From positions 4,976,590-5,008,879 of the forward strand of contig CP070782.1 in assembly GCA_020346325.1 (NCBI GenBank): DNA of 32,290 nt. Reading direction: 5' to 3'. Shown in pieces: positions 2,181 through 20,001 of this stretch (the first letter of the stretch is position 1; the number at the start of each line of letters is the position of its first letter). Below the pieces are notes generated by a model, which was not told where the DNA came from, ran no database searches, and saw only the letters and a list, made by a program, of their open reading frames with translations. This DNA comes from Phycisphaerales bacterium. GTDB taxonomy: Bacteria > Planctomycetota > Phycisphaerae > Sedimentisphaerales > Anaerobacaceae. Position numbers and translations under genes: made by a program.

Positions 2181-2984
2181 TTACCTGTTTGGCCCAGCCG
2201 CTCCGCTGGTTGCCGAGGGGTGCGATGGCAAGATCGGCCAACGTACCTGGCCATGTTGATCAGGCAGGATAGCCAGAACCGAATCAGCCAGTTCGCAGGC
2301 CAGAGACCGGGCCGAGTGCTCGAGGACGGAACTTACCTGCACCTGCGCCACGTAGCGCGCCGGGTTGCCTGAAATATTGATCATGCGACCGAACATCCCG
2401 GAGAAGTCCCGCTCGCTGAGGGTGATCTGACCGTTGAGCACATAGAATCCCAGTACGACGATCCGTTGGTACGCCGGCGCCGGCTTGTGAAACCAATGAA
2501 CCAGACATTTGATCTGCCGCCCGGAGCGCGAAACGAACTCCGACCGCGCGGTGTCGTCGTGAATCCAGCCGTGCGCGGGAAAGCACTTCATCGGCTGGTG
2601 CCCTAACACCCCCCCCGGCCGTGACGAGCAATACACCACATAGGCATCCGCCCAAACCCCTTCGCCGATCCTGCTATAGCGCCGACTGACGTAGTCATCG
2701 GCGAAATTGGTCTTCATGTACTCTTGTGTCACGGTAGGGATTTCAAGATCGCGGCCCTGCCAGCCCGCGATGGCTGTAGGTAACTCGCGCAGTGGCACCG
2801 GCAGAGTGATGGCCGGAGGATTCTCCATTTTGGCAGCGCCCAGGCGATAGATTACGCCTGCAATGACCAGCAGCATGACGGCCAGAACCCCCGCCAGCCA
2901 GACCGGCACAGTCCCGCAGCATGGACGAGCACCAAGGGGGCTCCGCAAACAATCGCTTCCAGAATCGCTCTGGCTGCCGTACAT
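2181..2984 (-). CDS. epsI: EpsI family exosortase-associated protein
   Basis: This 267-residue protein has a single membrane segment near residues 26-47 and a periplasmic domain of the EpsI/DUF3485 type. Recognisable features are a Gly-Trp-Gln-Gly motif near residue 74, an Asp-Asp-Tyr segment near 96, and the family hallmark His-x-Pro-x-x-Cys-x-Pro-Ala-x-Gly-Trp at 129-140. EpsI domains occur either as the C-terminal part of exosortases or as separate proteins beside them, in loci that sort PEP-CTERM-type proteins and make exopolysaccharide. Here the protein stands alone, with no exosortase gene in the window. A stop codon directly precedes the ATG at 2984, so the frame cannot start earlier. 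No good ribosome binding site is visible. The leader of about 128 nt runs from the promoter at 3119-3148. The tail after residue 230 is Pro/Ser/Ala-rich and probably disordered. Confidence 0.8.
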   Translation of the reverse strand: MYGSQSDSGSDCLRSPLGARPCCGTVPVWLAGVLAVMLLVIAGVIYRLGAAKMENPPAITLPVPLRELPTAIAGWQGRDLEIPTVTQEYMKTNFADDYVSRRYSRIGEGVWADAYVVYCSSRPGGVLGHQPMKCFPAHGWIHDDTARSEFVSRSGRQIKCLVHWFHKPAPAYQRIVVLGFYVLNGQITLSERDFSGMFGRMINISGNPARYVAQVQVSSVLEHSARSLACELADSVLAILPDQHGQVRWPILPSHPSATSGAAGPNR

Positions 2985-3944: not shown

Positions 3945-4038
3945 CACAGGCGATGCACGTCACGAGTTAATGGGGGTACCCATGGGGCATAAAGGACGTA
4001 CGGCGCAGCATTGCATGGATGGTAGTCCAGGTTGGTCC

Positions 4039-7000
4039 ATGCGTGTATTGACACAGATCGTGACGTTGACGGTTCTCGTCGGCGCCGCAGTACCGGCGGA
4101 GGCGGCCACCTACTATGTCGACGCCGCCCACGGCAATGACGCCAACCCCGGGACCAGCACCGCGCCCTGGAAAACACTCGGACGAGCAAAGATCAATTAC
4201 AGCGGCTCGCCCAAGGTAGCCTATGGCGATACCGTACTGGTGCGCAACGGCAGCTACGGCGGCTTCAGCCTGGACGGTTCCGTCTTCCCGTTGTGGGAAG
4301 GCGACAACGCCGACCCGCTCCCTGAGAGCCAGCAGTGGGTTACCTACAAGGCCGAGCCGGGCCAGACCGAAGTCCATCTCAGCGGCATCTATCTGAACCT
4401 GGGCAACGACCTGCGCGTCGTCGCTCACGTCTTCGACGGCTTCAAAATCATCAGACCGGGCGGCGATGGCATCTACACTCGCGCCGCGATGGGCGTGAAG
4501 CTCAAGAACATGGTCTTCGAGGGCATCACTGATACGGACGTCCTGTACGCCGAGACGAGCGCTCATAACAACATGGAATTCGCCTACCGCAACGCCGAAA
4601 TCCACATCGACAATTGCGACATTTCCTACGGCTACCGCGGCGTCTTCTTCGGGGGCTACAACTGCAACTGGAGCGTGACCAACTGCAACATCCACTCTGT
4701 CGGAACAGATAAAATCATCTGTGGCGGCGGCGTCAACATTCTCATTGAGAATAACCGCATCCACGGAAACTCACTGCTGCCCACCGAGCATCCCGACTGC
4801 ATTCAGTTCTACACGGCGGCGAATCGGTACCCGGGTTCCAGTGCCGACAACGTCACGATTCGGGGCAATCGACTTTACGATCATTCGTCGCAAGGTATCT
4901 GGACGGGCGGATCGATTCTTCGCAACGTGATCTTCGAAAACAACCTGATCTACAACACCGGCAACTACGAGTGGCGCGTGTACGGCGTGTACGGCGGTAT
5001 CATCCGCAACAACACGATCGTCGGTGACGATCTCGGCAACACGGGCATCGTCATCTATGGCGGGACGTTCACGGAGAATGAAGGCACCCTGGACGGCTAC
5101 CCGCGCAACCAGGATATCACCGTCGTGAACAACGTGTTCGCCACTTCCTACTCCGGCGACGCGAGCGTCATGACCTATCACGATCACAACATCTATGTGA
5201 AGCCGTGGAACGGTTCCCCCGGCGACAACGAAGCCCACAGCTACGGCTATGATTCGATCGATGCGGCGGTAGCGGCGCTGTTCCGCGATCCTGCGGCCCG
5301 CGACTATCGTCTCAAGGACGGCGCCCTCGGCGTCGACTTCGGCACGGTTGCCGCCGGCATCTATCCCACCGACCTGCTGGGCAACCCGCGCGAGGGCACA
5401 CCGGATGCGGGCTGTTTCGAAACCGGGACCGGTTCGGCCAATCAGGCCCCTTCTCTGGATCCCATTGCGGATCGGCAGATTGCGGCCGGTCAGACTCTGA
5501 CTTTGGCCATCACCGGAACTGACGCCGATGGTGACAGCCTGAGCTTCTCGGCCTCCGGCCTGCCCAGCGGAGCGACGTTCGCCGATGCCACCTTGGCCTG
5601 GACGCCGACAGACGGACAGGTTGGAACCTACCACCTCGCGTTTGAAGTCACAGACGGACAGTTCTATGACTCGGAGACCATCACGATCACAGTCGAGGGA
5701 TCCGGCGTAGAGGTGAACAACCAGCCCACCCTGGCTGCCATCGGGGACAAGGCAGTGAACGAAAACGTGCTCCTGAGCTTTTCGGTCAGCGCCAGTGACC
5801 CCGACGGCGATCCGATTACGTATTCGACCGGCAGCCTGCCCGGCGGGGCAAGCTTCTCCGACCAGAGTTTCGCCTGGACGCCGACCTACGATCAGTCCAG
5901 CGTCTACCAAGTGACCTTTACCGCCAGCGACGGGAACAGCCAGGCGACTGAGACCATCACGATCACGGTGGCCAATGTCAATCGGGCTCCCGTGCTGACC
6001 GGGGTCGGAGACAAGTCGGTGGATGAGTCGAGCCCGCTGACGTTTGCCGTTGCCGCCGCCGACCCAGATGGGGATGCCCTGACGTACTCCGCCGGCGGAT
6101 TGCCGTCGGGTGCAACGTTCGTGGATGGCGGTTTCAGTTGGACGCCAGCCTCAAACCAGATCGGCGCCTACGATGTCACCTTTGCCGTCAGTGACGGCGA
6201 TCTTCAGGACAGTGAGAGCATCACTCTCTACGTCGTAGGGACCGGCCCCGACACGACCGCGCCGACAGTGACCCGCTGCAATCCGGAGCCGGATGCCATC
6301 CAAGTCGTTACGAACAACCTGATCACTCTGCACGTCACTGACTCAGGCCACGGCGTGGACGCCGGCTCGGTGGTGGTCCAGGTTGATGGCAACATAGTCT
6401 TCCAGGGAGATGTGGATGTGTACACCAGCGAAACCGGCACATGTACCCGTTCCGGCACCTGGGGCGACTACCGCTTCATCTACCAGCAGGATGCTCCATT
6501 CGGTTTCGATCACACTGTGACCGTGACGGTCAGTGCCACCGACCGCGCCGGCAATGTGCTGAATGGGCACTCGCATTCCTTCACGACCGAGATGCGTGCG
6601 TTCGGCGGTAACCAACTCGTCAGCGACGGCACGGGACCGAAAGGGCACCCGGCTACCGTAGCGGATGCGACGGGGAACATCTGGGCCGTCTGGGAAACGG
6701 GCCTGGACGGGGACCGCGACGTCTATGTCGCCATGATGGCGGCCCAGACGAACGACTTCGCCCCGTCGGTGGCACTGGCGACCGGCGCAGGCGATCAGTG
6801 CAATCCGGATATAGCCTTGGCATCAGACGGGCAGCTCTATACCGTCTGGCAAGACAACAGCGGCGGCAACTGGGACATCTATCTGGCCACCTCGTCCGAT
6901 GGCACGACCTGGTCGCGGCCCGAGCTGTTGACCGACTCGGATGACAACCAGACCCAGCCGGCGATCACGATCGACGGTGAGTCGCCCAGCCGCGTCTACG

Positions 7001-8286
7001 TGGCATGGCAGGATGACCGCCATGGCGGTGCAGACGTCTACCTAGCCAGTTCGACCAATGCGTTTACCGAGAGCACCACGCTTCGTCTGACACCCGACGG
7101 CTCGGATCAGCTCGATCCGGATATCGCCGTCGACGGCCTGGATGTGGCCTACGTCGTCTGGACGGATATGAGAAATGGCCAGGCCGACCTCTACGGCGTT
7201 GCTTCCAGCGATTCCGGATGGCTTAACGTACCGATCGTCAGCACGAGCGGCGCCCAGACCAGTCCGGCGCTGGCCGCCGAGCCGAGCACCTCGGTTCTGC
7301 ACCTGTTGTGGGTGGACGATGCCCCGGGGCACCGTGACATCTACTATGCCTCGTGCGATGGCTTGCCAGCCAATCCCCTGGTCGGCACCAGCATCATCGA
7401 CGATACCTCCGGCGCCGACCAGCTCGGGCCGGCGATCGCGTGCGGCGGCAAATTGAACGTCTTCGCCTGTTGGCAGGACCTGCGCCACAGCACCGACACG
7501 GATCTCTTCCTGGCGGAAATCGGTCAGGGCTCCGCCAAGACGAATATCCTGATTGGCGACAACAGCACCAATACGGACCAGGGCGAACCCGCCGTCGGCA
7601 TCGACAGCCACGGCAATCCTTACGTGATCTGGACGGACAGTCGCAGCATGGAGACCGAGATTTACTATGCCGCGACGACGTTCATCAATCCGGTTCCGCT
7701 TGACTCCAAGCTGGTTATCGCCTCCGAGGGTGCCATGATCGGCCCGGATCCGTCTACCATCGACGAGCCGTCGGACGTCTCGCTGATCGTCCCGCCCGGC
7801 GCGTGCCAGAGCGATGTACGTATCACCATCGCGGAGATCCTGAATCCGCAGGCGATGCCCGTCGAGTGTCTGGGCAGCTATGACTTCGGCCCCAGTGGCA
7901 TCGGTTTCGACGAGCCGGTAACGGTCACCATCCCCTACCGCTTCAATGGCGACGGCAACTCGGCCACGCCGTACTGGTACGACTCGCTGACCGGCGCCTT
8001 AAGCACGCAGGGAATCACGGACATTCAGAATATCGTCGTCGCAGCCGACTTAAACGCGCTGCAATTCAAGACGACTCACTTTACGCCGTTTTATCTGATG
8101 GCGGCTGAGGTTGAAACCGCCGATAGCTCCGACAGCGAAAGCAGCGGTGCGTGCTCCGTCTCGCCGACGGGCACCGGCTCTCCGAAGGAACTGCTGGTCC
8201 CCTACGGCCTCATTGCGGTCGTCATGATTGCTCTGAGACGATGGGACCGAGGGAAACGGCGCTGCTTCAGAACGACCCAAGGGTAG
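4039..8286 (+). CDS. Giant secreted beta-helix/Ig/beta-propeller protein with C-terminal sorting signal
   Basis: The ATG at 4039 is chosen because it gives a clean signal peptide (residues 1-23, ending Ala-Glu-Ala-Ala). In-frame ATGs at 3970, 3982 and 4015 would put about 23, 19 or 8 polar residues before it. The product is 1415 residues. Residues 24-460 look like a right-handed parallel beta-helix: many Asn-Asn, Gly-Gly and Asn-x-Ile turns, starting Tyr-Tyr-Val-Asp-x-x-x-Gly-x-Asp, a pectate-lyase-like/DUF1565 hallmark. Three cadherin-like/He_PIG repeats follow (467-735), then another Ig-like domain (738-850). Seven units of the type Trp-x-Asp...Asp-(Val/Ile/Leu)-Tyr make a beta-propeller (854-1215), and a ZU5-like domain comes next (1222-1345). 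The tail is Ser/Asp-rich, then Gly-Ala-Cys (Cys1372), a hydrophobic stretch and Arg-Arg-Trp. It is probably exported and surface-anchored. Glycan binding or lyase activity is possible, but no catalytic residues can be assigned. The gene ends 7 bp before the protease GTG start. Confidence 0.85.
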   Translation: MRVLTQIVTLTVLVGAAVPAEAATYYVDAAHGNDANPGTSTAPWKTLGRAKINYSGSPKVAYGDTVLVRNGSYGGFSLDGSVFPLWEGDNADPLPESQQWVTYKAEPGQTEVHLSGIYLNLGNDLRVVAHVFDGFKIIRPGGDGIYTRAAMGVKLKNMVFEGITDTDVLYAETSAHNNMEFAYRNAEIHIDNCDISYGYRGVFFGGYNCNWSVTNCNIHSVGTDKIICGGGVNILIENNRIHGNSLLPTEHPDCIQFYTAANRYPGSSADNVTIRGNRLYDHSSQGIWTGGSILRNVIFENNLIYNTGNYEWRVYGVYGGIIRNNTIVGDDLGNTGIVIYGGTFTENEGTLDGYPRNQDITVVNNVFATSYSGDASVMTYHDHNIYVKPWNGSPGDNEAHSYGYDSIDAAVAALFRDPAARDYRLKDGALGVDFGTVAAGIYPTDLLGNPREGTPDAGCFETGTGSANQAPSLDPIADRQIAAGQTLTLAITGTDADGDSLSFSASGLPSGATFADATLAWTPTDGQVGTYHLAFEVTDGQFYDSETITITVEGSGVEVNNQPTLAAIGDKAVNENVLLSFSVSASDPDGDPITYSTGSLPGGASFSDQSFAWTPTYDQSSVYQVTFTASDGNSQATETITITVANVNRAPVLTGVGDKSVDESSPLTFAVAAADPDGDALTYSAGGLPSGATFVDGGFSWTPASNQIGAYDVTFAVSDGDLQDSESITLYVVGTGPDTTAPTVTRCNPEPDAIQVVTNNLITLHVTDSGHGVDAGSVVVQVDGNIVFQGDVDVYTSETGTCTRSGTWGDYRFIYQQDAPFGFDHTVTVTVSATDRAGNVLNGHSHSFTTEMRAFGGNQLVSDGTGPKGHPATVADATGNIWAVWETGLDGDRDVYVAMMAAQTNDFAPSVALATGAGDQCNPDIALASDGQLYTVWQDNSGGNWDIYLATSSDGTTWSRPELLTDSDDNQTQPAITIDGESPSRVYVAWQDDRHGGADVYLASSTNAFTESTTLRLTPDGSDQLDPDIAVDGLDVAYVVWTDMRNGQADLYGVASSDSGWLNVPIVSTSGAQTSPALAAEPSTSVLHLLWVDDAPGHRDIYYASCDGLPANPLVGTSIIDDTSGADQLGPAIACGGKLNVFACWQDLRHSTDTDLFLAEIGQGSAKTNILIGDNSTNTDQGEPAVGIDSHGNPYVIWTDSRSMETEIYYAATTFINPVPLDSKLVIASEGAMIGPDPSTIDEPSDVSLIVPPGACQSDVRITIAEILNPQAMPVECLGSYDFGPSGIGFDEPVTVTIPYRFNGDGNSATPYWYDSLTGALSTQGITDIQNIVVAADLNALQFKTTHFTPFYLMAAEVETADSSDSESSGACSVSPTGTGSPKELLVPYGLIAVVMIALRRWDRGKRRCFRTTQG
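5437..6236 (+). repeat. Three tandem cadherin-like/He_PIG repeats within the coding region
   Basis: Three consecutive units of about 88 codons each encode the pattern Pro-x-Leu...Ile/Val-Gly-Asp-Lys, Asp-x-Asp-Gly-Asp-x-Leu/Ile, Leu-Pro-x-Gly-Ala-x-Phe, Trp-Thr-Pro, and a closing Glu-(Thr/Ser)-Ile-Thr strand. They begin near 5437, 5717 and 5977. Such repeats are common calcium-binding spacers in large surface proteins. The protein similarity is clear while the DNA has drifted, so the duplication is old. Confidence 0.8.
8122..8268 (+). other. C-terminal Cys-containing sorting signal (MYXO/JDVT-CTERM-like)
   Basis: The last codons of the giant protein encode a three-part signal. First comes a Ser/Asp/Glu-rich spacer (residues about 1355-1369), then a Gly-Ala-Cys-Ser-Val-Ser-Pro motif with Cys1372 at 8152-8154. 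A hydrophobic segment (about 1385-1399) and an Arg-Arg-Trp-Asp-Arg-Gly-Lys-Arg-Arg basic tail complete it. This matches the layout of signals processed by glutamic intramembrane proteases of the myxosortase group, in which a Cys precedes the helix. It differs from PEP-CTERM (no Pro-Glu-Pro) and from LPXTG. The match to a named family is from memory. The adjacent CPBP protease supports it. Confidence 0.65.
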
Positions 8287-8293
8287 AGTTTTG

Positions 8294-9037
8294 GTGAAAC
8301 TTCAATGCAGTCAATCTGGCCTTGCCGGCTCGGCGTCAATCGCCGAGCCGGCAAGCTCGCTTGTGGCCGCCCAACCAGCACGTCGCTGGTGGTTAGTGAT
8401 CGAGACCGCGCTGGTCACCATCGCGGCACTGGCGGCCATCAAGGTGTTGAATGTCCAGCGGGCCCAGGCCATGCGCTGGGTTCTGATTCCGGGCATCTTG
8501 GTGGGAGCCGCGTTGATCCCCACCTGGATGGCCCGGCGTGAATTCCCACGTATCGGACTGAACCGCAACGACGCGAAACTGGCACTGGCCACGGTTGGCT
8601 GGGTCAGCGCCGTCGTCTTTCCCGTGGTCTTTCTCGGGCTCTGGATACTGACACGCATGGGTCAGCCGCTTCCCTTGCAACCGGCCCTCGCCAGGCAACA
8701 CGACTGGGCTGCGTGGCTGGTCTATCAGTTCCTGTATGTCGCAGTTGGCGAAGAAGTGTTCTTCCGCGGATACGTCCAGGCCAACATGACACGGTTCCTC
8801 GGCCACCGGCGCTGGCAATCTGAGGCAATCCGGCAGGCGCTTGTCCTGTCCCTCTCGGCCGCCTGCTTCGCCGCGGCCCACGTGATCGTTCAAGGCCGAA
8901 TGGTCTCTCTGCTGACCTTCCTGCCCGGCTTGCTCCTCGCCTGGCTGTTTCTGCGAACGCGCTCGCTGCTGGCTCCTATCCTCTTCCACGGACTGGCCAA
9001 CGTCACCTACGGCATCATGGCGCTGACATTAGCCTAG
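8294..9037 (+). CDS. CPBP-family glutamic intramembrane protease (myxosortase-like)
   Basis: This 247-residue membrane protein carries all three CPBP/CAAX (ABI, Rce1-like) motifs, counted from the GTG at 8294. They are Glu153-Glu154-x-x-x-Arg158 inside Gly-Glu-Glu-Val-Phe-Phe-Arg-Gly, Phe192-x-x-x-His196, and His232-x-x-x-Asn236. Several hydrophobic helices surround them. The family cleaves substrates within the membrane using a glutamate-activated water. Members paired with Cys-containing C-terminal signals are known as myxosortases (MrtX, MrtC, MrtJ and MrtS types). Here the gene begins only 7 bp after a protein with exactly such a tail, so it is probably that tail's dedicated processing enzyme and translationally coupled to it. 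A TTG at 8291 is an alternative start. AAGGG (8279-8283) is a weak ribosome binding site. A role in bacteriocin immunity or another substrate is possible but less likely here. Confidence 0.85.
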   Translation: MKLQCSQSGLAGSASIAEPASSLVAAQPARRWWLVIETALVTIAALAAIKVLNVQRAQAMRWVLIPGILVGAALIPTWMARREFPRIGLNRNDAKLALATVGWVSAVVFPVVFLGLWILTRMGQPLPLQPALARQHDWAAWLVYQFLYVAVGEEVFFRGYVQANMTRFLGHRRWQSEAIRQALVLSLSAACFAAAHVIVQGRMVSLLTFLPGLLLAWLFLRTRSLLAPILFHGLANVTYGIMALTLA

Positions 9038-9216: not shown

Positions 9217-10116
9217 ATGAGAACGATAGCGATGAACGATAAACAAATGTCGAAGCTCTTCTGGGCGGTCAAAGGAACGCTCGTGGCCGTGCTGTTGTAC
9301 GTTGCCATCGAGGCCGTCATCACGCCCTTCCAGCGTGGCGCCGGGCTGAAGCCTAAGGCGGTTGCCGGCGGCGAACGACCGCTCGTGCAGACCCCGGTTG
9401 AGTCCCAGACCCAAACGCCTCCGGACTACACGGTCATTCTGGACAACGATGTCTTCGGCGGATCGGAGCAACCGGCCGAGACCGAGGCCACTTCCACCCC
9501 GACGGTGGCCGTCCCTACCCTGCCGTCGGCCGAGAAACTCGGGCTCAGGCTGCAGGGCGTGGTCGCCGGCGGCCCTCTGACCTCGCGGGCGATTATCCAG
9601 GATGTCAAGACGAAACAGACCATGCCCTATCGCATCGGTGACAGCGTGGCATCGGCCACGATCGAGTCCATCGAGTCTGATCGTGTGGTCCTGCTGCACC
9701 GCGGGCGAAAGGCCGTGCTTCAGATGCACGTCGTCACCTCGCCGGCCGGCCCGGCCGCCGCCGAGACTCAGGAAAAACCGGCCAGCGTTGCGAAGAAACC
9801 GGCAACCAGCGACCAGCAGCTCCCGCAACCCTCCGCCCGCTTGGGCTACGTGGAGGAAGTCTTTCGCAAGGCGACCATCGAACCGTATGTACAGGACGGT
9901 CAGACGGAAGGACTTAGAATCACCGGACTCGAAGCAACGCCGCTAACCAAGCTATTTGGCTTGAGAAACGGAGATATCGTGCAGAGTGTCAACGGGCAAA
10001 CCCTGAATAGCAAACAGAAAGCATTTCAGGTTCTCAAGAAGGCCCGAACGCAACCCAGGATCGACCTGAAACTGCTGCGCGATAGAGAAACAAAGGAACT
10101 GTCATTTGATCTCTAG
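9217..10116 (+). CDS. gspC: Type II secretion protein GspC
   Basis: This 299-residue protein is a single-pass inner-membrane protein with one N-terminal membrane segment (about residues 10-35). A homology-region domain follows (about 70-175): it opens with the Asn-Asp-Val-Phe-Gly segment typical of GspC/PulC and then carries Leu-Gly-Leu-x-Leu-x-Gly-Val-Val. After a Pro/Ala/Lys linker there is a C-terminal PDZ domain (about 205-299) with Leu-Phe-Gly-Leu-Arg-Asn-Gly-Asp and Ser-Val-Asn-Gly. GspC couples the inner-membrane platform to the secretin and helps recruit substrates. It is the first gene of the operon. ATGs at 9217 and 9232 are both possible. A nine-codon out-of-frame ATG frame at 9213-9242 overlaps both and could dampen initiation. 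The gene overlaps the gspD frame by 11 nt. Confidence 0.93.
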   Translation: MRTIAMNDKQMSKLFWAVKGTLVAVLLYVAIEAVITPFQRGAGLKPKAVAGGERPLVQTPVESQTQTPPDYTVILDNDVFGGSEQPAETEATSTPTVAVPTLPSAEKLGLRLQGVVAGGPLTSRAIIQDVKTKQTMPYRIGDSVASATIESIESDRVVLLHRGRKAVLQMHVVTSPAGPAAAETQEKPASVAKKPATSDQQLPQPSARLGYVEEVFRKATIEPYVQDGQTEGLRITGLEATPLTKLFGLRNGDIVQSVNGQTLNSKQKAFQVLKKARTQPRIDLKLLRDRETKELSFDL

Positions 10117-12451
10117 CAAGACGGAGAACACCTTGAAGACGAGATACAACAATATCCCGGCACGGCTTCGGCGTACGCACCATCTCTCAGTACGCAACGC
10201 CGTGCATCGGCTTGTGCAAATCGTCGCAGTGACGTGTGCTCTGGCCCTCAGCGGCTTCGGGTGCGGAGTCGAAACGAAAGCGGTCGACAGCAGCGACGTC
10301 TGTCCCATTCAACTACAGACGCGGCCCAGCTCGCCCAGCTCCTTCGCCGCAGCGACGGCTGCGGTTCGGCCGCCCGTGAACGCCGCGCGTCCGGAGATGT
10401 TCCAAGGCCAGTACACGAGTTTGCCACTCGGCGTCTCGGCCAATCTGGTCAGCTATGCCGAACCGCTGGCCCAGCCGCCGGCGCCGCGCTTGACACAGAG
10501 CGCAGAGTCACCCGCGCCGACGCCCGTGGCCCAGGAACGGACGCCCATTCCCCAGGAACCGTCCACGCCGGTCGAGTCGCAGCCGCCAGTAACTGCCACG
10601 GCCCAGCCGCCAGTCGTCCCGGCGCCCCATCCCGGACCCCCGGTCGTGATTCCGCCCGAGATGGCCGACGAGTTGGTTCAGATCAATTTCGAAGAGGTGG
10701 ATATCCGGACGGTTCTCAAGACGATCGGCGAAATAACGGGCATCAACTTCATCCTGGCCAAGAACGTCAGCGGGCCCGTGACGGTGATGTCACCGACACC
10801 GATTCCACTGAAGGAACTCTACGGCTTTCTTCAGCAGATTCTCGACGTGCACGGATATGCGACGATAGAAACTGACAACGCGGTAAAGATCGTCCCCAAA
10901 GAAGAGGCCAGCAAACGCAGTCTCCAGGTGCGAATCGGCGCCGACCCGGCGTTCATCCCGAAGAACGACGCCATGGTCACTCAGATCCTTCCGATCAAGT
11001 ACGCGGCGGCCACGGAGATCAGCGAAATCGTTCAATCGCTGTTGCCGGCTGGGGCTCAGATGACGGTGTATCCCAGGACGAAATCCATCATGGTTACCGA
11101 CATCTCGGCCAACATTCACCACATCGCGCAGATCATACAGCAGCTCGACGTGGAAGGCTCGCGTGAGAACGTCGTGCGCTTTCCCCTGCAATACGCTTCG
11201 GCCCAGGTGCTGAGCGAGCAGATTACGCGCATCCTCAGCGAAAACCAGGCTCCTGCACCGCAGGCCGGCCGCTCGCGCAGCGTCCCCTCAGTGGAAAATG
11301 GGCCTCAGGTCCTGCCTGATGAACGAACCAACTCACTGGTGGTCATGGCCGGCGAACAGGACATGGAGACCGTCCGCAGCCTGGTCGCACAACTTGACGT
11401 GGAACGGCCCACCGGCGTGGATAAGGTCCACGTGACGTATCTGAAGAATGCGGACGCCAACGATGTGGCTCCGGCCCTGGAAGCTGCGCTGGCGAGCATG
11501 AAGCTGACCGGTGTCATGGAGGCCGCCCCGCAAATCCAGGTGACCGCTGACGACAGCACCAACTCTCTAATCATCGTGGCGTCGCCGCAGGATTTCGAGA
11601 TGATCTCGGGCATCGTTGAGAAGCTCGACATCGTGCGCGAACAGGTTCTAGTCGAGATGAAATTTGTGGAGGTCACAGAAGAATCACTCACCGAGATCGG
11701 GGTCGACTGGGCCACCCTCGACGAAGCCGTGTCCGACAGTATCCGCGGCTTCGGCATGACCAACCTGGGCCCGCGCGTCGATTTCCTCAATGGCACGCTC
11801 GAAGGGCTTGCGGCGGGTTTCTGGAAAGCCACGGATGACGGCGTCAGCATCGGCGCCATTCTCCAGGCTTTGCAGCGAGACTCGGCCGTGAACATTCTCT
11901 CCACGCCTCACATCGTAACATCGAACCACCGTACCGCCCGGATCGTGGTCGGAGAGAACATCCCCTACGTCGCGCAATCCCGGATCACGGAGGGCTTTGA
12001 CTCACTGAACTCAACGAATATCAAGACCTACGAATACAAAGACGTCGGCATCACCTTGGAGGTGACCCCTCACATCAGCCAGAGCGGCTTGATCCGCCTC
12101 GAGGTCGATAGCGAGTTCACCAAGCTGCTGGAGAGTATCCAGACCGGATCGCTCGATACACCCACCACGGCCAAACGCGAGGCGCAGACGCACGTGACCA
12201 TGCAGAGCGGCGCCACCGTGGTGATCGGCGGGCTGATCCGTGATGATACCAGCCGCATCGAGGACAAGGTACCCTTGTTCGGTGATCTGCCCCTCGTCGG
12301 TGCCCTCTTCAAGATGCAGAAGGACGTCGTGCAGAAAACCAATTTGCTCATCTTCATCACGCCGCACGTGATGACGGATCAGCAGCAACAACAAGAACTG
12401 ACCCGGGCAAAGAAAGAACAGATGCCGGCCTTTCTGAGAGAGGATCGCTGA
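10106..12451 (+). CDS. gspD: Type II secretion outer-membrane secretin GspD
   Basis: The 781-residue product forms the outer-membrane channel. After a signal sequence and a long Pro/Ala/Gln-rich linker (about 60-185) come the N0 domain (about 190-270, with Gln-Ile-Asn-Phe-Glu-x-x-Asp-Ile) and N1-N3 KH-like repeats, each with an Asp-Glu-Arg-Thr-Asn-Ser-Leu or similar strand. The C-terminal secretin barrel has Ser-Thr-Pro-His-Ile, Val-Gly-x-x-Ile-Pro-Tyr, and the closing Val-Pro-x-Phe-Gly-Asp-Leu-Pro-x-Val-Gly motif. The start codon is unusual: TTG at 10106 with AAAGGAA 7 nt upstream, or TTG at 10133 with GGAGA 5 nt upstream. Both are in frame. The hydrophobic N-terminal segment ends Ser-Gly-Phe-Gly-Cys, near but not matching a lipobox, so pilotin-independent lipidation is uncertain. 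The linker before N0 is longer than in enterobacterial GspD. Confidence 0.95.
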   Translation: MISSKTENTLKTRYNNIPARLRRTHHLSVRNAVHRLVQIVAVTCALALSGFGCGVETKAVDSSDVCPIQLQTRPSSPSSFAAATAAVRPPVNAARPEMFQGQYTSLPLGVSANLVSYAEPLAQPPAPRLTQSAESPAPTPVAQERTPIPQEPSTPVESQPPVTATAQPPVVPAPHPGPPVVIPPEMADELVQINFEEVDIRTVLKTIGEITGINFILAKNVSGPVTVMSPTPIPLKELYGFLQQILDVHGYATIETDNAVKIVPKEEASKRSLQVRIGADPAFIPKNDAMVTQILPIKYAAATEISEIVQSLLPAGAQMTVYPRTKSIMVTDISANIHHIAQIIQQLDVEGSRENVVRFPLQYASAQVLSEQITRILSENQAPAPQAGRSRSVPSVENGPQVLPDERTNSLVVMAGEQDMETVRSLVAQLDVERPTGVDKVHVTYLKNADANDVAPALEAALASMKLTGVMEAAPQIQVTADDSTNSLIIVASPQDFEMISGIVEKLDIVREQVLVEMKFVEVTEESLTEIGVDWATLDEAVSDSIRGFGMTNLGPRVDFLNGTLEGLAAGFWKATDDGVSIGAILQALQRDSAVNILSTPHIVTSNHRTARIVVGENIPYVAQSRITEGFDSLNSTNIKTYEYKDVGITLEVTPHISQSGLIRLEVDSEFTKLLESIQTGSLDTPTTAKREAQTHVTMQSGATVVIGGLIRDDTSRIEDKVPLFGDLPLVGALFKMQKDVVQKTNLLIFITPHVMTDQQQQQELTRAKKEQMPAFLREDR

Positions 12452-12508
12452 CCTGGCGGCAATCCGTCCCAGCGTATTCTTGTCGCAGGCGCGCGAGGAG
12501 GTTCATTG

Positions 12509-14110
12509 GTGAACGTAGCTCAAACAAAACGAACAGAAGGTCAGCAACTCTGGAAGATTGCTCCGGAGCAGTTGGATCCGAGCATCGTGCAGAAACTGCC
12601 GCTGGAGTTTCTCAAGAAGCAATGCGCCATTCCGATTGTGTTGGAAGGTGGCCGAACCGCGATCGCGCTGGCAGACCTGTTAAACGTGGAGGCCTATGAC
12701 GCCATCGTCAGTATCCTGGGCCAGCCCTGCCCGCGCGTCCGGTGCCCTGCTCCTGAAATCGAGAGCGCGATCAGTCAATGCTACTACCACGCCAGCGAAC
12801 AGGAAAAGCAATCCGGCGCCGACGAGCGGGCTGCGACCAGCGAGGCCAACGCTGCGGCTACGACGTCTGTACAGACGCACGCCGAGGACCTGCTGAACAT
12901 CGCCAGCAAGGCTCCCGCGATCAAACTGGTCAACAAAATCCTGTTCGAAGCGGTCCACAGCCGAGCCAGTGACATCCATATCGAGCCGTACGAAACCGAA
13001 GTCACGGTCCGCTTCCGCGTCGATGGTGTCCTGCACAACGTTCTGGGCCTTCCGAAACACCAGGCCAGTTCGCTGCTGTCGCGGCTGAAGATCATGGCAA
13101 ATCTCAACATAGCCGAGCATCGCCTCCCGCAGGATGGCCAGAGCCGTGTGCGAATCGGCGACGAACTGGTCGACATTCGCGTCTCCGTAATCCCCACCGC
13201 CGGCGGGGAGCGCGTCGTGCTGCGCTTGCTCGACAAGGGGCGCGGGCAACTCGGGCTCCAGGATATCGGGTTCGGGCCGCAAACTCTGAGTACGTTTCGG
13301 GACCTCATCGGCGTGTCGCACGGGATCATCCTGTTGACCGGTCCCACCGGCAGCGGCAAGACCACGACACTCTATGCGGCTCTGAACGAACTCAACAGCG
13401 AAGAGCGAAACATTCTCACCGTGGAAGATCCGGTCGAATACCAGCTCCCCGGCATTGGCCAGATGCAGATCAAGTCCAAGATCAATCTGACCTTTGCCAA
13501 TTGCCTGCGTCACATTCTCCGACAGGACCCGGACGTGATCATGATCGGGGAAATCCGTGACCGCGAGACGGCCGAAATTGCCATCCAGGCTTCCCTGACC
13601 GGCCATCTCGTGTTGAGCACCTTGCACACGAACGATGCCCCCTCGGCAGTCACGCGACTGACGGAGATGGGGATCGAACCGTATCTGATCTCGTCGTCGG
13701 TGATCGGGGTCATGGCCCAGCGACTCCTGCGAGTCATCTGTCCGGAGTGCAAGCGACCTCATCAGCCGCGAGACCTCAACGCGGTCGAGGCCGAACTGCG
13801 CAAACTTCAAAGCGGCGCTCTTGAGCTCTATCACGGGGCGGGCTGCGAAGCCTGCCTGAACACCGGATACACGGGCCGAACCGCCATTTTCGAACTCCTG
13901 GTCATGGATGATGAAATCAAAGACCTCGTCATCCAACGCCGTGGGGCGCACATCATCAAACAGGCGGCACTGGCCAAAGGGATGACCACCTTGCGTGAGG
14001 ACGGCCTGCGCCGAGTTCTGGCGGGGGTGACCACCCTCGAGGAGGTCTATCGTGTCACCCAGGACAGCGTCAAATCGAATGCGGGGGTAAGCGAACGTGC
14101 CGACTGTTGA
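12509..14110 (+). CDS. gspE: Type II secretion ATPase GspE
   Basis: The GTG at 12509 is preferred, with GAGGAGG (12495-12501) 7 nt upstream. TTG at 12506 is the alternative. The 533-residue protein powers pseudopilus assembly from the cytoplasm. It has an N-terminal MshEN-like domain (about 10-105), a variable Ala/Glu linker, an N2 domain, and the RecA-like core. The core carries Walker A Gly-Pro-Thr-Gly-Ser-Gly-Lys-Thr-Thr (about 278), an Asp box (Val-Glu-Asp-Pro-Val-Glu), Walker B with Asp-Val-Ile-Met-Ile-Gly-Glu-Ile-Arg-Asp (about 342), and a His box Leu-Ser-Thr-Leu-His-Thr-Asn-Asp. The C-terminal CxxC-x31-CxxC zinc knuckle is characteristic of GspE/PilB ATPases and absent from retraction ATPases (PilT). 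It lies 57 nt after gspD and overlaps gspF by 14 nt. Confidence 0.95.
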   Translation: MNVAQTKRTEGQQLWKIAPEQLDPSIVQKLPLEFLKKQCAIPIVLEGGRTAIALADLLNVEAYDAIVSILGQPCPRVRCPAPEIESAISQCYYHASEQEKQSGADERAATSEANAAATTSVQTHAEDLLNIASKAPAIKLVNKILFEAVHSRASDIHIEPYETEVTVRFRVDGVLHNVLGLPKHQASSLLSRLKIMANLNIAEHRLPQDGQSRVRIGDELVDIRVSVIPTAGGERVVLRLLDKGRGQLGLQDIGFGPQTLSTFRDLIGVSHGIILLTGPTGSGKTTTLYAALNELNSEERNILTVEDPVEYQLPGIGQMQIKSKINLTFANCLRHILRQDPDVIMIGEIRDRETAEIAIQASLTGHLVLSTLHTNDAPSAVTRLTEMGIEPYLISSSVIGVMAQRLLRVICPECKRPHQPRDLNAVEAELRKLQSGALELYHGAGCEACLNTGYTGRTAIFELLVMDDEIKDLVIQRRGAHIIKQAALAKGMTTLREDGLRRVLAGVTTLEEVYRVTQDSVKSNAGVSERADC

Positions 14111-15281
14111 ACCACAGATACTGACTGAGACGCCGGGCGCGAGCTCGCAACGGCGATCAGACGACCACCTCGGTGCTGCGAATCAGGCGCCGGGCATGGA
14201 GTTGCTGCGGCGGGTGAACACCCGGGATCTCAGCAGGTTGGCACGTCAGTTGTCCACCTTGCTGCACGCCGGCATGCCCCTGGTACCGGCGTTGTCGGCG
14301 CTCATCGAGCAGATGCAGTGTCCGACGAAGCATCGGGCGGTGCGCTGGGGACAGACGACCAGCCCGTTGGCTCAGATCGTCGAAGGCGTACGGGATGACG
14401 TCAACGCGGGCAGCACCCTGGCGGAGGCCTTCGGCCGACACCCAAGCCTGTTTTCACCGCTGTTCATCAACATGATTGCCGCGGGCGAGGCCAGCGGGAC
14501 GCTCGAAATCGTCCTGGGCCGACTCGCCGACATCCTGGAGAAGCGCGTCCAACTGACCGGCAAGGTCAAATCAGCCGTGGCCTATCCGGTGATGATGGCC
14601 ATCGTCGCAACCGGCGTCGTGGTATTTTTGCTGTCCTTTGTGGTGCCCAGTATCACGGAACTGTTCGTGAAGATGAACCAGGAGCTGCCCTGGCCGACCC
14701 GGTTGCTGATCGGCATCAGTGGCTTCGTTAAAACGTATATCGTTCTTATCCTCGTTATTGTCTGCGGAGCGGTGGCCGGAGCCGTGGCCCTGACCAAAAC
14801 GCATGACGGTCGATCGTGGCTGGATCGCATCAAGCTGCGTCTTCCTCTATTCGGCCCCTTGTTCTTCCGGCTCGAAGTGGCCCGGCTGACTCGCACACTG
14901 GGGACGCTGATGAAGAGCGGCATTCCGGTCATCGCGGCCCTGGAGATCAGCCGGCGCGTCAGCCAGAACAGCGTCATCACCAAGGCCGCCGAAACCATCG
15001 CGGAACTGGTCCACAAAGGCCAGACCATAGCCGACGCGGTGAAGACGACGGGGCTGTTTCCGCCCGTGATCTTCCACGTGATTGCGACCGGGCAAATGAC
15101 CGGCAACATCGAAGACGGGTTGATTGACATCGCTGAGATGTATGACGGTGAAGTCGAAACGACGGTGCGGACCCTGACCTCCCTGTTGGAACCGTTGATC
15201 CTGCTCCTAATGGGCGGCGTCGTGGGTTTCATCGTGCTGGCCATTCTGCTGCCCATATTTGAAATCAACCAAACATTGTAG
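14097..15281 (+). CDS. gspF: Type II secretion inner-membrane platform protein GspF
   Basis: The 394-residue product is a polytopic inner-membrane protein with two T2SSF domains (about 65-190 and 270-390) and three membrane helices: near 165-190, 215-235, and at the extreme C-terminus ending in Leu-Pro-Ile-Phe-Glu-Ile-Asn-Gln. Family hallmarks include Leu-Ser-Thr-Leu-Leu-x-Ala-Gly-Met-Pro-Leu, its counterpart Leu-Gly-Thr-Leu-Met-Lys-Ser-Gly-Ile-Pro-Val, and Ala-Ala-Gly-Glu-Ala-Ser-Gly/Ala-Thr-Gly-Gln-Met-Thr-Gly. GspF works with GspE, L and M to drive pseudopilin assembly. It starts with a GTG whose ribosome binding site lies inside gspE, so the two genes are translationally coupled. Confidence 0.94.
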   Translation: MPTVEPQILTETPGASSQRRSDDHLGAANQAPGMELLRRVNTRDLSRLARQLSTLLHAGMPLVPALSALIEQMQCPTKHRAVRWGQTTSPLAQIVEGVRDDVNAGSTLAEAFGRHPSLFSPLFINMIAAGEASGTLEIVLGRLADILEKRVQLTGKVKSAVAYPVMMAIVATGVVVFLLSFVVPSITELFVKMNQELPWPTRLLIGISGFVKTYIVLILVIVCGAVAGAVALTKTHDGRSWLDRIKLRLPLFGPLFFRLEVARLTRTLGTLMKSGIPVIAALEISRRVSQNSVITKAAETIAELVHKGQTIADAVKTTGLFPPVIFHVIATGQMTGNIEDGLIDIAEMYDGEVETTVRTLTSLLEPLILLLMGGVVGFIVLAILLPIFEINQTL

Positions 15282-15291
15282 GGGACAAGAT

Positions 15292-15741
15292 ATGATGAAG
15301 ACCCAGTATTGTCATGCTACTCGAAGAACAGGCGGTTTCACGCTGATCGAACTGATGATCGTCGTGGTGATTCTGGGCCTGCTGGCCACCATCATCATGC
15401 CGAAGATCCTGGGCCGTCCGGAACAGGCTCGTCGGACCACGGCCAAGGCGGAGATACGAAGCATCCAGCAGGCACTGGCCCTGTTCAAGACCGACACCGG
15501 GCGCTTCCCCACGACCGCCGAGGGCCTGCAGGCTCTCGTCATCGATCCGGGCATCAAGAACTACTGTCGCGACGGATATCTGGAGTCCATCCCGACCGAT
15601 CCGTGGGGCCGCCCGTATATCTACATCTGCCCGGGATTGCACGGTAGCGACTATGATCTTGAATCCTTCGGCAAAGACGGGGAAGACGGCGGAGTAGATG
15701 ATGACGCCGATATCGAGAGCTGGAAGCTCGAGGATGAATAG
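15292..15741 (+). CDS. gspG: Major pseudopilin GspG
   Basis: The ATG at 15292 is chosen because AGGGGA sits 6 nt upstream. It gives a 149-residue prepilin with a short basic leader and the cleavage site Gly15|Phe16-Thr-Leu-Ile-Glu20, followed by a hydrophobic helix. The T2SSG domain shows the Phe-Pro-Thr-Thr-x-Glu-Gly-Leu-Gln-Ala-Leu loop and Asp-Pro-Trp-Gly-x-Pro-Tyr. It ends in an acidic loop with Phe-Gly-x-Asp-Gly and several Asp residues, the calcium site known in GspG. This is the main subunit of the piston. It follows gspF by 10 nt, and no gspH lies between it and gspI. Confidence 0.95.
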   Translation: MMKTQYCHATRRTGGFTLIELMIVVVILGLLATIIMPKILGRPEQARRTTAKAEIRSIQQALALFKTDTGRFPTTAEGLQALVIDPGIKNYCRDGYLESIPTDPWGRPYIYICPGLHGSDYDLESFGKDGEDGGVDDDADIESWKLEDE

Positions 15742-15776
15742 CCAGACGCCGTTCGGTGTAGACAGGTGCGTGGGAA

Positions 15777-16190
15777 ATGAAGGATCGGCGGACGACAACA
15801 CGGTCGGCTTTCACGCTCATTGAAGTCCTCGTGGCACTGGCTGTTGCAGCCATCGGCCTGCTGGGCCTGCTGCGACTCCATCTGATCAGTTTGGCCTCGA
15901 TCGATGCGGCCCAGGCCATGACCCAGGCAGTCTTCATCGCCCAGGAGAAGATGGCCGAGACCTCAGCCGGCGGTTATCCCCAACAGGGAACGAAGACAGG
16001 CACGACCGAACGCAACGGTCAGCGCTTCGCCTGGCGGGTCGAGGTCACCGAGGCCCGAGCCCACAACACCGGCACTTTCACGCTGAAAGGTTTGCGCCTG
16101 GTCCGGGCGTTCGTCACCTGGCAACACGGCCGGGGGCAGAAGAACATCGAGATGACCACGTACATCGCGGATAGTCGAATCCATGAATAG
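15777..16190 (+). CDS. gspI: Minor pseudopilin GspI
   Basis: This 137-residue prepilin has a short Arg/Thr-rich leader and the sequence Ser-Ala11|Phe12-Thr-Leu-Ile-Glu16, then a hydrophobic helix. The residue before the cleavage point is Ala instead of the usual Gly. Some prepilin peptidases tolerate Ala there, so the protein is probably still processed. The C-terminal part matches the GspI fold (Arg-Phe-Ala-Trp-Arg-Val-Glu-Val strand, then a basic strand with Val-Thr-Trp). GspI nucleates the I-J-K tip. It overlaps gspJ by 8 nt. Confidence 0.9.
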   Translation: MKDRRTTTRSAFTLIEVLVALAVAAIGLLGLLRLHLISLASIDAAQAMTQAVFIAQEKMAETSAGGYPQQGTKTGTTERNGQRFAWRVEVTEARAHNTGTFTLKGLRLVRAFVTWQHGRGQKNIEMTTYIADSRIHE

Positions 16191-16932
16191 AAACCGGAAC
16201 AACACGGGCTTCACACTGATCGAGATGCTGATCGCTCTGGCCATGATGGCCATGATCGTATCGATGGTCTATGGGAGCTACGCCGCGACATCACAATCGG
16301 TGGAGGCCTGCGACAGCCGGTTGATGTACTCGGAGCGAGCGTCCCTGGTGCTTCGTCTCATGGCGCGACAGATCCGCTGCGCGTATGCTCCCGCGGCGGA
16401 TCCCAATAGCTACATTTCGGCGGCTGCCGGCAACGACACCCAATCCCAGGCCGACTCCGCGCGGCCCAGCCAGGTCCAAACCGAACGGCTGCGCCCCGTC
16501 TTTCAAGGAGGTGCGCAACACCGACACGGAGAGTTGTTGAGTTTCGCGACCACGACGGGCCTAACCGGCGGACTGGACGGACCGCGGGGCCTGTCTCAGA
16601 TACGATATCGACTCGACTCGATCACCAACACACTCTGGCTCGACTGCGGGCCTCGTATGGATCGACTCAGCCACGCCAGCTTCGTCCAGGAAGGACATCC
16701 CGTACTGGACCACGTGGTCGCGGTGGATGTCGCGTTTCATGACGGTCAACGGTGGTTGACGAAATGGACAGGCACGAAAAGTCGAGAGTTGCCACATGCC
16801 GTACGTATTGACTTGAGTCTCCTCGATGAGGCGGGACGATCATATCACTTCGGCACGACGGTGCGCACCTTTACCCGGGCAGCCGGCACGCTGATGGCCA
16901 CGAACCAGATGAGCAGGGAGCACAAGCGATGA
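16183..16932 (+). CDS. gspJ: Minor pseudopilin GspJ
   Basis: The 249-residue prepilin has the cleavage site Gly9|Phe10-Thr-Leu-Ile-Glu14 and a hydrophobic helix rich in Ala and Met. A larger soluble domain follows, with a Gln-Ile-Arg-Cys-Ala-Tyr segment and an Ile-Arg-Tyr-Arg-Leu-Asp strand. GspJ joins GspI and GspK in the pseudopilus tip. Gene order, the overlap with gspI (8 nt) and with gspK (4 nt, ATGA) confirm the assignment. At about 240 mature residues it is longer than the enterobacterial protein, mainly from a Ser/Gln-rich loop near residues 75-110. Confidence 0.9.
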   Translation: MNRNRNNTGFTLIEMLIALAMMAMIVSMVYGSYAATSQSVEACDSRLMYSERASLVLRLMARQIRCAYAPAADPNSYISAAAGNDTQSQADSARPSQVQTERLRPVFQGGAQHRHGELLSFATTTGLTGGLDGPRGLSQIRYRLDSITNTLWLDCGPRMDRLSHASFVQEGHPVLDHVVAVDVAFHDGQRWLTKWTGTKSRELPHAVRIDLSLLDEAGRSYHFGTTVRTFTRAAGTLMATNQMSREHKR

Positions 16933-17918
16933 GGTTACGTGCTCGCCAACACCGTCGCAACGGATTCGTCCTGGTGGTCGTCCTGGGCCTGGTGCTCCTG
17001 CTGTCGGTCCTGCTGTTCGGGTTCAATCACAAGACCCTCATCCGTCTGGACACGGCCGAAAGCTTCCGGGAATTCGAACAGGCCCTGCACTGCGCCCGAG
17101 CCGGCCTGGGCATTGCCATGGCAGCGATCCGCGATGCCAACGACCTTTCCGACAACCCGCGATTCGCGAAATTGCGAACGGGGCAGGAGACATTCTCCGT
17201 CGGCGATGGAACCTGTTCTGTGACGATCACGGGAGCCGACGGACGCCTGAACGTCAACCGCCTCAAGAGCAGAGGCGGCCGTCTGGACAGGAGACGAATC
17301 GAACAACTGCTGCGGCTGATCGACCTGATCAACCGCGACCGTGTCGGCTCCGAGCACATCGGTTACAGTCTGGTCCCGGCCCTGATCGACTGGATTGACC
17401 AGGACGACGAGATAACGCAACTGCCCTTTGTCAATCGCGATAATCAGGGCGCCGAAAACCGTTACTATGCCACGTTGACGCCGGCCTATCCGTGCCGGAA
17501 TCGGCCGATGGATACGATCGAGGAACTCTACTGGGTCAAGGGGGTCACGCCGGAAGCGTTTGCCATCCTGCGCGATCTGCTGACCACGGTCGGTGAGGGG
17601 CGCATCAACATCAACACGGCACCGAGACTCGTTATCGAGTGCCTGTCGGAACAGATGGATCCGGTTCTGACCCAGGTGATCATCCAGCAGCGGGAGGTCA
17701 AACCGTTTCGGCATGTGGCCGAGCTGAAAGAGGTACCCGGAATGACCGATAATGTCTACGAAACGATCCGGGACACCATTACCACCGGCTCCGACGAACA
17801 GCATTACCGCGTTAGCACGCGTGGGAAGGTTGGCGATCGAATATGTGAGATCGAAGCCCTGTTGCGCCGAAACAGCAAGGCCGGAAATGTCGATATTATC
17901 CAGTACAGAGAGTCATGA
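16929..17918 (+). CDS. gspK: Minor pseudopilin GspK
   Basis: The 329-residue product is the large tip pseudopilin. Its leader ends Gly12|Phe13, and the mature helix lacks the Glu at position 5 found in the other pseudopilins. That absence is the known GspK signature. The soluble part has a helix-hairpin-helix-like alpha domain inserted in the pilin fold, with Asp-x-x-Gly-Arg-Leu-Asn-Val-Asn-x-Leu early, Leu-Ile-Asp-Trp-Ile-Asp, and Gly-Arg-Ile-Asn-Ile-Asn-Thr-Ala-Pro later. These match the T2SSK family. GspK caps the pseudopilus and controls its length. It starts 4 nt inside gspJ. Confidence 0.93.
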   Translation: MRLRARQHRRNGFVLVVVLGLVLLLSVLLFGFNHKTLIRLDTAESFREFEQALHCARAGLGIAMAAIRDANDLSDNPRFAKLRTGQETFSVGDGTCSVTITGADGRLNVNRLKSRGGRLDRRRIEQLLRLIDLINRDRVGSEHIGYSLVPALIDWIDQDDEITQLPFVNRDNQGAENRYYATLTPAYPCRNRPMDTIEELYWVKGVTPEAFAILRDLLTTVGEGRININTAPRLVIECLSEQMDPVLTQVIIQQREVKPFRHVAELKEVPGMTDNVYETIRDTITTGSDEQHYRVSTRGKVGDRICEIEALLRRNSKAGNVDIIQYRES

Positions 17919-17967
17919 TCGCAGATGACCCAGCTCCGGCTTCGGAGGAAGGACAAGAGATAGCATT

Positions 17968-19443
17968 ATGGCAAAGAAGTCTATTGGTATCGATATCGGA
18001 CGATCGCACTTGCGGGCGGTACAAATGGTGCGAACCCCCGAAGGTTTTCGCGTGGAGAAGGCCTTCGGCATGCAGATGCGTCGACGAACGGACTCGCCCG
18101 TCAACGTCCTGCGGGCCCTGACGACCAAGCATGGGTTCGATCGCCGCGCGGAGGTCGCCGTCTGTCTGCCTCACCATGCCATCTTCTTTGCCGACACGGA
18201 AATCGACGGGGCTACGCTAGAGCAGTTTCGCACGGGGGCCACCTCCGGGCTCAAGGATGACTTTCCCATTGCGGCCGAGAAAGCCATGGCGCAGGTCTGT
18301 TCGACACGACCGGCTGGCGACGACCGCCATTGTGTCCTCGTCGCGGCCACGTCCAGCGATCTGCTCGAAGAGGAACTAACCTTGTTGGGTGAAGGGCGAC
18401 TCCAGCCGACCCAGGTCGAGACGCCGATCACGGCCGTGCATGCAGCGGTGGCGTTCAATCATCCCGATTGCCAGCGGGGCACCGCCCTGATCCTGTGTGT
18501 CGAGCAGGCGGTCCTCAATCTGGCCGTGATTCACGATGGCCATCTTCTCATGGTCCGCAACATTCCCATGCTCGTGCCCCGCGACAGCGACCTGGAAACC
18601 ATGGCCTGCCAGGTGACGGAGACGCTTAACCGTGAGATCGAGATCACTTGGCGTAAGCTGTTCGATTCGGAACCGAGCACCGAGCTGCGCGTTTACCTCA
18701 TCGCCGAGTCGAAAGCGGGACGATATCTGGCCGCGGCCATCGAGGGAGACGTCAATTGCCGCGTGACGCTGGTTGATCCGTACGCCAAGGTCGAACGGGC
18801 CGCGAACCTTGAGGCCACGTTCCCGATCTGCGTCGCCGAAGGTTTGGCTCTACACAGGCTGCTGCCACAATCGGCCGGTGCGATCAATTTCCTGGCAGCG
18901 TACGGCAACAGGGGACAATCCCCACGAAACATGCGCAAGGAACTCGTGTTCTGCGCGGGCCTGTTGGCGGTGACGGTCGCCATTTGGATCATCGGCTCGC
19001 TCGTGCAGTTGTCGCGCCTCGAATCGACGTACGCCACGCTCAAAGCAGAAATCGAAGATGTCACGCGGCAGACGTTGCCCGAAGAAAACAACATCGTCAA
19101 CCCCCGCGCCCAGCTCCAGCAGCGGCTCGATGCATTCCGCAGCGACAGCGCCCTGCTGACCTCGTTTCGCCCGGGGCGATTGACACCTCTGGAGATTCTT
19201 CGCCTTCTCAGCATCCATCGCCCTCAAGCCGAGAAGCTGACACTCGACGACCTGTTTGTGGCGGCCGATTCCGTCCGCGTGACAGGCCGCTGTGACTCCT
19301 TTGGCACCCTTCTGGAGTGGCAGTGCATGCTGGAAGAGATCCCGGGATTCGACAACGTCGAGATCCCCAACCCCAATAGAGATGCCGAAACGGGCATGGT
19401 GGACTTCACCCTGTCCCTTTCTTGCGGAAGGACGGTGCAATAG
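17968..19443 (+). CDS. gspL: Type II secretion protein GspL (PilM/PilN-like)
   Basis: The 491-residue protein has an actin-like ASKHA domain (about 1-315) starting Ile-Gly-Ile-Asp-Ile-Gly-Arg-Ser, one membrane helix (about 324-348), and a coiled-coil plus ferredoxin-like periplasmic domain. That is the GspL layout, equivalent to a fusion of the pilus proteins PilM and PilN. GspL docks the ATPase GspE to the membrane and binds GspM. A PilM label from a search tool would reflect the well-kept nucleotide-binding-like N-terminus. The context (between gspK and a GspM-like gene) favours GspL. A purine-rich AAGGAC lies 13 nt before the ATG, a wide spacing. A 49-nt gap separates it from gspK. Confidence 0.87.
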   Translation: MAKKSIGIDIGRSHLRAVQMVRTPEGFRVEKAFGMQMRRRTDSPVNVLRALTTKHGFDRRAEVAVCLPHHAIFFADTEIDGATLEQFRTGATSGLKDDFPIAAEKAMAQVCSTRPAGDDRHCVLVAATSSDLLEEELTLLGEGRLQPTQVETPITAVHAAVAFNHPDCQRGTALILCVEQAVLNLAVIHDGHLLMVRNIPMLVPRDSDLETMACQVTETLNREIEITWRKLFDSEPSTELRVYLIAESKAGRYLAAAIEGDVNCRVTLVDPYAKVERAANLEATFPICVAEGLALHRLLPQSAGAINFLAAYGNRGQSPRNMRKELVFCAGLLAVTVAIWIIGSLVQLSRLESTYATLKAEIEDVTRQTLPEENNIVNPRAQLQQRLDAFRSDSALLTSFRPGRLTPLEILRLLSIHRPQAEKLTLDDLFVAADSVRVTGRCDSFGTLLEWQCMLEEIPGFDNVEIPNPNRDAETGMVDFTLSLSCGRTVQ

Positions 19444-20001
19444 ATGATTCAGTTGACTCGAAGAGAACGACGATTGGGAATCGGCATGATCGTCGTGGGG
19501 GCGGTTTGGAGCCTGTACGGATTCGCGCTTCAGCCGATGCGCGATCGCATCGATACGCTCCAGCGCATCATCCCGGATAAACGGAGTGAACTGCGGGAAG
19601 TGCGTGCCCTCAGCGACAGCTACGCCACCCTCCGCCGGGAAATCGAAGCCGCGCAGGCGCGCATGGCCGCGCAGGATTCCGACTTCCAATTGCTGCGCTT
19701 CCTGGAGTCACTTATCGACCAGCACCAGTTGACTCCTTACGTGGCCACCATGAAAGGAGACACGCTGCCCTCGCAGCCGGGTTACGCGGAAACGGTGGTG
19801 GAGATCGGACTCGAGGGCATCACGCTGAGCCAGTTGGTCCATTTTCTGGAAGCGGTGGAAACCTCGCAGGTCTTGGCGCAGGTCGGGACCCTCCACATTC
19901 GCAAGACCACCGGGGGCAGCGCGCGACTCTACTCCACTATTCAGATCAGCAGTCCGCGGGTCAGTCACAACACAGTCGCTGCCGAACTGGCCCCGCTCTA
20001 G
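19444..20001 (+). CDS. gspM: Type II secretion protein GspM (PilO-like)
   Basis: This 185-residue protein starts directly after the gspL stop, with no spacer. It has a short basic N-terminus (Thr-Arg-Arg-Glu-Arg-Arg-Leu), one membrane helix (about 12-32), a coiled coil (about 33-78), and a small ferredoxin-like domain (about 85-175) with Leu-x-Gly-Ile-Thr-Leu-x-Gln-Leu-Val-x-Phe-Leu. This is the layout of GspM/PilO, which stabilises GspL in the inner-membrane platform. It is the last gsp gene. A GAGACC-GA-GGTCTC inverted repeat (20006-20019) follows the stop but has no T-run, so it is not a clear terminator. Confidence 0.83.
   Translation: MIQLTRRERRLGIGMIVVGAVWSLYGFALQPMRDRIDTLQRIIPDKRSELREVRALSDSYATLRREIEAAQARMAAQDSDFQLLRFLESLIDQHQLTPYVATMKGDTLPSQPGYAETVVEIGLEGITLSQLVHFLEAVETSQVLAQVGTLHIRKTTGGSARLYSTIQISSPRVSHNTVAAELAPL

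Follow-up and report, generated by a model that had tools for sequence, protein, structure and literature searches.

The window analysed here, a stretch of 32,290 nucleotides considered as a whole, carries a gene for a large secreted protein whose C-terminal tail bears a cysteine and, almost directly after it, a gene for a putative myxosortase-type CPBP protease (Table 1). The initial annotation described this pair but overlooked its setting: the two genes stand at the head of a type II secretion system (T2SS) operon running from gspC to gspM, in which GspC, D, E, F, G, I, J, K, L and M are encoded in that order (Pfam, 9217-20001) and no prepilin peptidase GspO was found among the annotated operon genes. 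A putative zinc peptidase gene (20155-21180, +) lies directly after gspM, as it does in relatives of the same genus. At the other end of the locus a membrane protein of 523 residues (437-2008, -) has no Pfam or NCBIfam match and by eye resembles a polysaccharide flippase.

Table 1. Features of the cargo, protease and T2SS locus in the window
Feature	Position	Strand	Remark
Divergent EpsI-family (DUF3485) gene recurring beside the module	2181..2984	-	
Substrate, secreted 1438-aa protein with Cys tail	3970..8286	+	likely true start 4039
C-terminal sorting tail (candidate): Ser-rich spacer, GACSVSP, hydrophobic helix, basic end	8098..8283	+	
Myxosortase-type CPBP glutamic intramembrane protease (predicted)	8291..9037	+	start TTG 8291 or GTG 8294
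gspC (T2SSC domain + PDZ)	9217..10116	+	
gspD secretin	10106..12451	+	Pfam
gspE ATPase	12506..14110	+	Pfam
gspF	14097..15281	+	Pfam
gspG major pseudopilin	15259..15741	+	Pfam
gspI	15777..16190	+	Pfam
gspJ	16183..16932	+	Pfam
gspK	16929..17918	+	Pfam
gspL	17968..19443	+	Pfam
gspM	19444..20001	+	Pfam

The length given for the substrate, or cargo, is counted from the ATG at 3970; its likely start is Met24 (MRVLTQIVTLTVLVGAAVPAEA), with a Sec signal judged by eye. Pfam recognises in it a beta-helix, repeats of Ig and cadherin-like type and a ZU5-like region, and propeller-like repeats are also present. When loci are compared, the N-terminal part differs from one to the next, and least change is seen in the tail and in the propeller-like and ZU5-like regions; the protein looks like variable heads upon a constant stem. 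The reading frame ends in SSDSESSGACSVSPTGTGSPKELLVPYGLIAVVMIALRRWDRGKRRCFRTTQG, and the tail reads SSDSESSGACSVSPTGTGSPKELLVPYGLIAVVMIALRRWDRGKRR. The tail had been described from the outset as a Ser-rich spacer, GACSVSP, a helix and a basic end with its cysteine at position 1372, and this description holds when residues are counted from Met24; counted from the ATG at 3970, the same cysteine (codon 8152-8154) is residue 1395. In an alignment of 23 tails this cysteine and one proline are invariant, and a Gly-rich run precedes the cysteine in most.

The suggestion that the signal is distinct from the named C-terminal families is borne out by the model searches. The window tail matched none of the NCBIfam CTERM models, JDVT-CTERM (NF033191, cut-off 27 bits) among them, and the MYXO-CTERM, Synerg-CTERM and PEP-CTERM models matched none of the 23 tails at E up to 1. 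JDVT-CTERM is the closest, with weak matches to 7 of the 23 relatives' tails (best E 5e-4) and scores of 12.8 and 14.9 bits, under the cut-off, for those relatives' tails that were scored; run against the window's own genome it gave nothing above its cut-off and no informative additional tails. A single tail was found in that genome at the sensitivity used, the next match having E ~1, and here the proposal of a dedicated one-substrate pair stands. It does not extend to several relatives, which have two or three tails each, mostly without linkage to the protease; the extra tails examined sit on paralogues of the same cargo, encoded elsewhere in those genomes (L103-L110). The tail has thus been seen on one homologous protein family only, that with the propeller and ZU5-like region, and this weakens the claim that it is a sorting signal, let alone a portable one. 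If it is a sorting signal, it adds to the C-terminal sorting signals of the Planctomycetota a member that current NCBIfam CTERM models overlook.

The protease gene begins 4-7 bp after the cargo stop codon, the interval of 7 bp first reported applying to the GTG start at 8294 and one of 4 bp to the TTG at 8291. Every residue of the motif set claimed for it could be located (EE154-155-x3-R159, F193-x3-H197, H233-x3-N237), and none of the catalytic residues (Glu, Arg, His and Asn) varies among its relatives. Pfam PF02517 places it within the CPBP family (66.8 bits, cut-off 22.4), and it matches the myxosortase core model Mrt_core (NF040914) at 79.3 bits, below the curated cut-off of 100; four proteins of its own genome match that model, and it scores highest among them, at 81.9 bits. 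All 16 related proteases tested match all of the myxosortase models. A model built with AlphaFold2 from an alignment of the window and related-locus sequences (mean pLDDT 88.4, seven long helices) has the predicted CPBP fold, both clear structural matches being CPBP proteins: SpdC (6u0o, Z 16.6) and Rce1 (4cad, Z 14.8), the next entry lying far lower, at 6.9. Foldseek on its own ranked Rce1 first, non-significantly (E 0.16), and a sequence search of the PDB with the protease profile returned no match, so that the link to this fold comes from the comparison of structures. In a tree of the protease core (125 columns, long branches, weakly resolved and without order in the deep forks) most Planctomycetota proteases fall outside the MrtX-like group (98/91), MrtS and MrtJ, two divergent ones (L096 and L098) stand apart, and a generic CPBP sequence has probably been placed wrongly within the Planctomycetota clade.

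Conservation of the adjacent pair, which had been proposed as a check on the initial reading, is extensive. The protease is matched in 33 of 99 genomes (the window's own and relatives), and named records from the genome collection belong to Phycisphaerae, Sedimentisphaerales and other Planctomycetota. A Cys-tailed gene lies directly upstream of it in 22 of the 26 relatives with a readable upstream side and about 1 kb upstream in one more. The cysteine, present in 23/23 tails, is otherwise scarce in these proteins (0.8% of their bodies), and with the conserved adjacency this makes the pairing more than chance. Protease and tail occur together in 27 of the 99 genomes, the protease without the tail in 6, the tail without the protease in 4 and neither in 62; for the protease and a PDZ-type GspC, a label assigned by the extent of the match into the GspC model, the corresponding counts are 31, 2, 4 and 62. 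Fisher tests give p values of 2e-14 and 5e-19, respectively, both inflated by the kinship of the genomes. The tail model was, moreover, trained on protease-adjacent tails, so that the informative part of the first comparison is the rarity of tails where the protease is absent. Three genomes (G012, G014 and G029) have the protease and a T2SS with no tail detected, and one (G054) has the tail and gspC with no protease detected; many such assemblies are incomplete. In G054 gspC comes straight after the Cys-tailed gene, no protease gene intervening (L111:1647-5598), and another locus has two such genes, one gspC-like and ahead of the Cys-tailed gene, the other a gspC after the protease (L121:6426-10689). 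These co-occurrences are read directly from the sequences, as are the tail itself, the catalytic residues of the protease and the conserved order of the genes. The original assignment to a myxosortase-type system, in which a CPBP protease is paired with a tail of cysteine, transmembrane helix and basic end, agrees with the conserved adjacency and co-occurrence and with matches to Mrt_core, MrtC, MrtP, MrtS, MrtJ and MrtX, all below cut-off, and judged on these grounds the window protease and tail are a new, putative enzyme and signal pair of this type.

What this pair does is most plausibly read by analogy with MrtX and with T2SS work, and on that footing it most likely makes a lipid-anchored T2SS cargo. 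The cargo would pass through the inner membrane via Sec and be held there by its C-terminal helix; a lipid would probably be put on the tail cysteine prior to cleavage, and the myxosortase-type protease would cut at or near that residue. The folded cargo would then cross the outer membrane through the T2SS encoded downstream, with the PDZ-type GspC as its likely receptor, and the lipid would keep it on the cell surface. MrtX cleaves MYXO-CTERM tails, requires their cysteine and works in E. coli, and its substrates use the T2SS; their lipidation is proposed but unproven (PMC11980579). VesB, a substrate of rhombosortase (GlyGly-CTERM), depends for its secretion on the EpsC PDZ domain, by way of an Ig fold (PMC12369372). 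That cargo, sorting protease and T2SS form a linked module of the Planctomycetota yielding surface lipid-anchored cargo is, in our judgement, probable. Against it stand the single protein family on which the tail is seen, the four genomes in which either tail or protease went undetected, and the failure to identify a lipidating enzyme.

In a simpler scheme the protease merely frees the cargo by trimming its tail and the T2SS secretes it fully, with no lipid and no surface anchor. In its favour, the module is without an acyltransferase gene, and TraA lacking its tail is reported to be released by the T2SS (PMC11980579). A plain release site, however, would need no cysteine, and the residue is invariant in all 23 tails; the cleavage of TraA by MrtX requires cysteine residues (PMC11980579). 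This scheme has a small but real chance of being correct. Among 28 informative relatives, 24 have gspC directly downstream of the protease, which raises a different prospect, namely that the protease serves the T2SS itself, in assembly or quality control, and that the Cys-tailed gene just happens to lie next to it; the three genomes in which protease and T2SS were found without a tail might also suggest this. Against this, GspC matches occur also in genomes without the protease, and at three loci where the T2SS genes are not beside the protease (L089, L094 and L098) a Cys-tailed protein still precedes it, a sign that the protease goes with the cargo and not with the secretion machine. A service role of this kind is very unlikely.

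The divergent EpsI-family gene bears on who processes the tail. Most loci whose upstream sequence can be read have it next to the module, and its H129, C134 and C160 are present in 17/17 sequences and H163 in 16/17. An exosortase aided by this neighbour could conceivably process the tail, leaving the CPBP protease some other task, and the window's genome does contain three exosortases. All three lie elsewhere, unlinked to the module, none being beside the EpsI-family gene in the window, and no PEP-CTERM-type model matches the tail; on these two grounds an exosortase was set aside as the processing enzyme. Across genomes, moreover, the tail tracks the protease, and we regard exosortase processing as highly improbable. 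A bolder extension of the lipid-anchored module would make the locus a self-contained surface-display machine, with a variable-headed cargo on a constant stem of propeller, ZU5-like region and Cys tail, its own myxosortase and its own PDZ-type T2SS, in which the EpsI-family protein, drawn from exosortase systems, would supply the C-terminal modification, and would take the T2SS linkage as ancestral to the whole myxosortase family. As a whole this extension is unlikely.

Linkage of myxosortase-type genes to the T2SS is also found outside the Planctomycetota. At 5 of the 10 Burkholderiales loci examined, gspF and gspG flank MrtJ (L251, L252, L253, L255 and L257), a Cys-tailed gene directly adjoining it once; the 2025 myxosortase paper, in the part available, describes just a two-gene MrtJ neighbourhood (PMC11980579). 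At 1 of 10 Synergistales loci a Cys-tailed gene stands directly before gspJ and gspK-type genes, with MrtS divergent (L250:8859-18952), and in a Nitrospira record one follows the T2SS operon, with an Mrt-like protease convergent (L129:9555-20064). With cargo, protease and T2SS in one conserved gene run in the Planctomycetota and similar linkage in three other phyla, the tie between sorting and the T2SS becomes visible in the genome. Myxosortase studies leave open which enzyme modifies the cysteine and how the tag is linked to the T2SS, and the window locus offers a compact gene set with which this tie could be rebuilt and tested.

Among known systems, MrtX and MYXO-CTERM of Myxococcus xanthus share with the window pair the catalytic residues of a CPBP glutamic protease, a tail of cysteine, transmembrane helix and basic end and use of the T2SS, which is established for the MrtX substrates and predicted for the window cargo. 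They differ in a GCGC-type motif and dozens of substrates, whereas the tail here is G-rich (GGC-S-x-S-P) with a conserved proline at the start of the helix, and the window protease reaches 38 bits against the MrtX cut-off of 180. MrtJ and JDVT-CTERM likewise form a two-gene pair of enzyme and substrate with an invariant cysteine, and in half of the loci examined MrtJ is in a T2SS operon, but within it, whereas the window pair heads the operon; the window protease scores 54 bits (cut-off 75) and falls in another part of the tree, and no tail scored exceeds 14.9 bits, where JDVT-CTERM demands 27. MrtS of Synerg-CTERM systems is a related CPBP protease, a Cys-tailed gene standing directly before T2SS genes in the one locus already cited, yet the window protease reaches 61 of 130 bits and belongs to a separate clade. 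The best-scoring NCBIfam subfamilies are MrtC and MrtP (83 and 80 bits), far under their cut-offs of 195 and 250, and MrtZ gives 49 against 325. Rhombosortase, for its part, is an unrelated rhomboid serine protease whose GlyGly-CTERM signal is defined by Gly and Ser and not by an invariant cysteine; it nevertheless shares with the window locus a tripartite tail and, as seen with VesB and predicted here, export through the T2SS, where the GspC PDZ domain is needed for one Ig-fold cargo.
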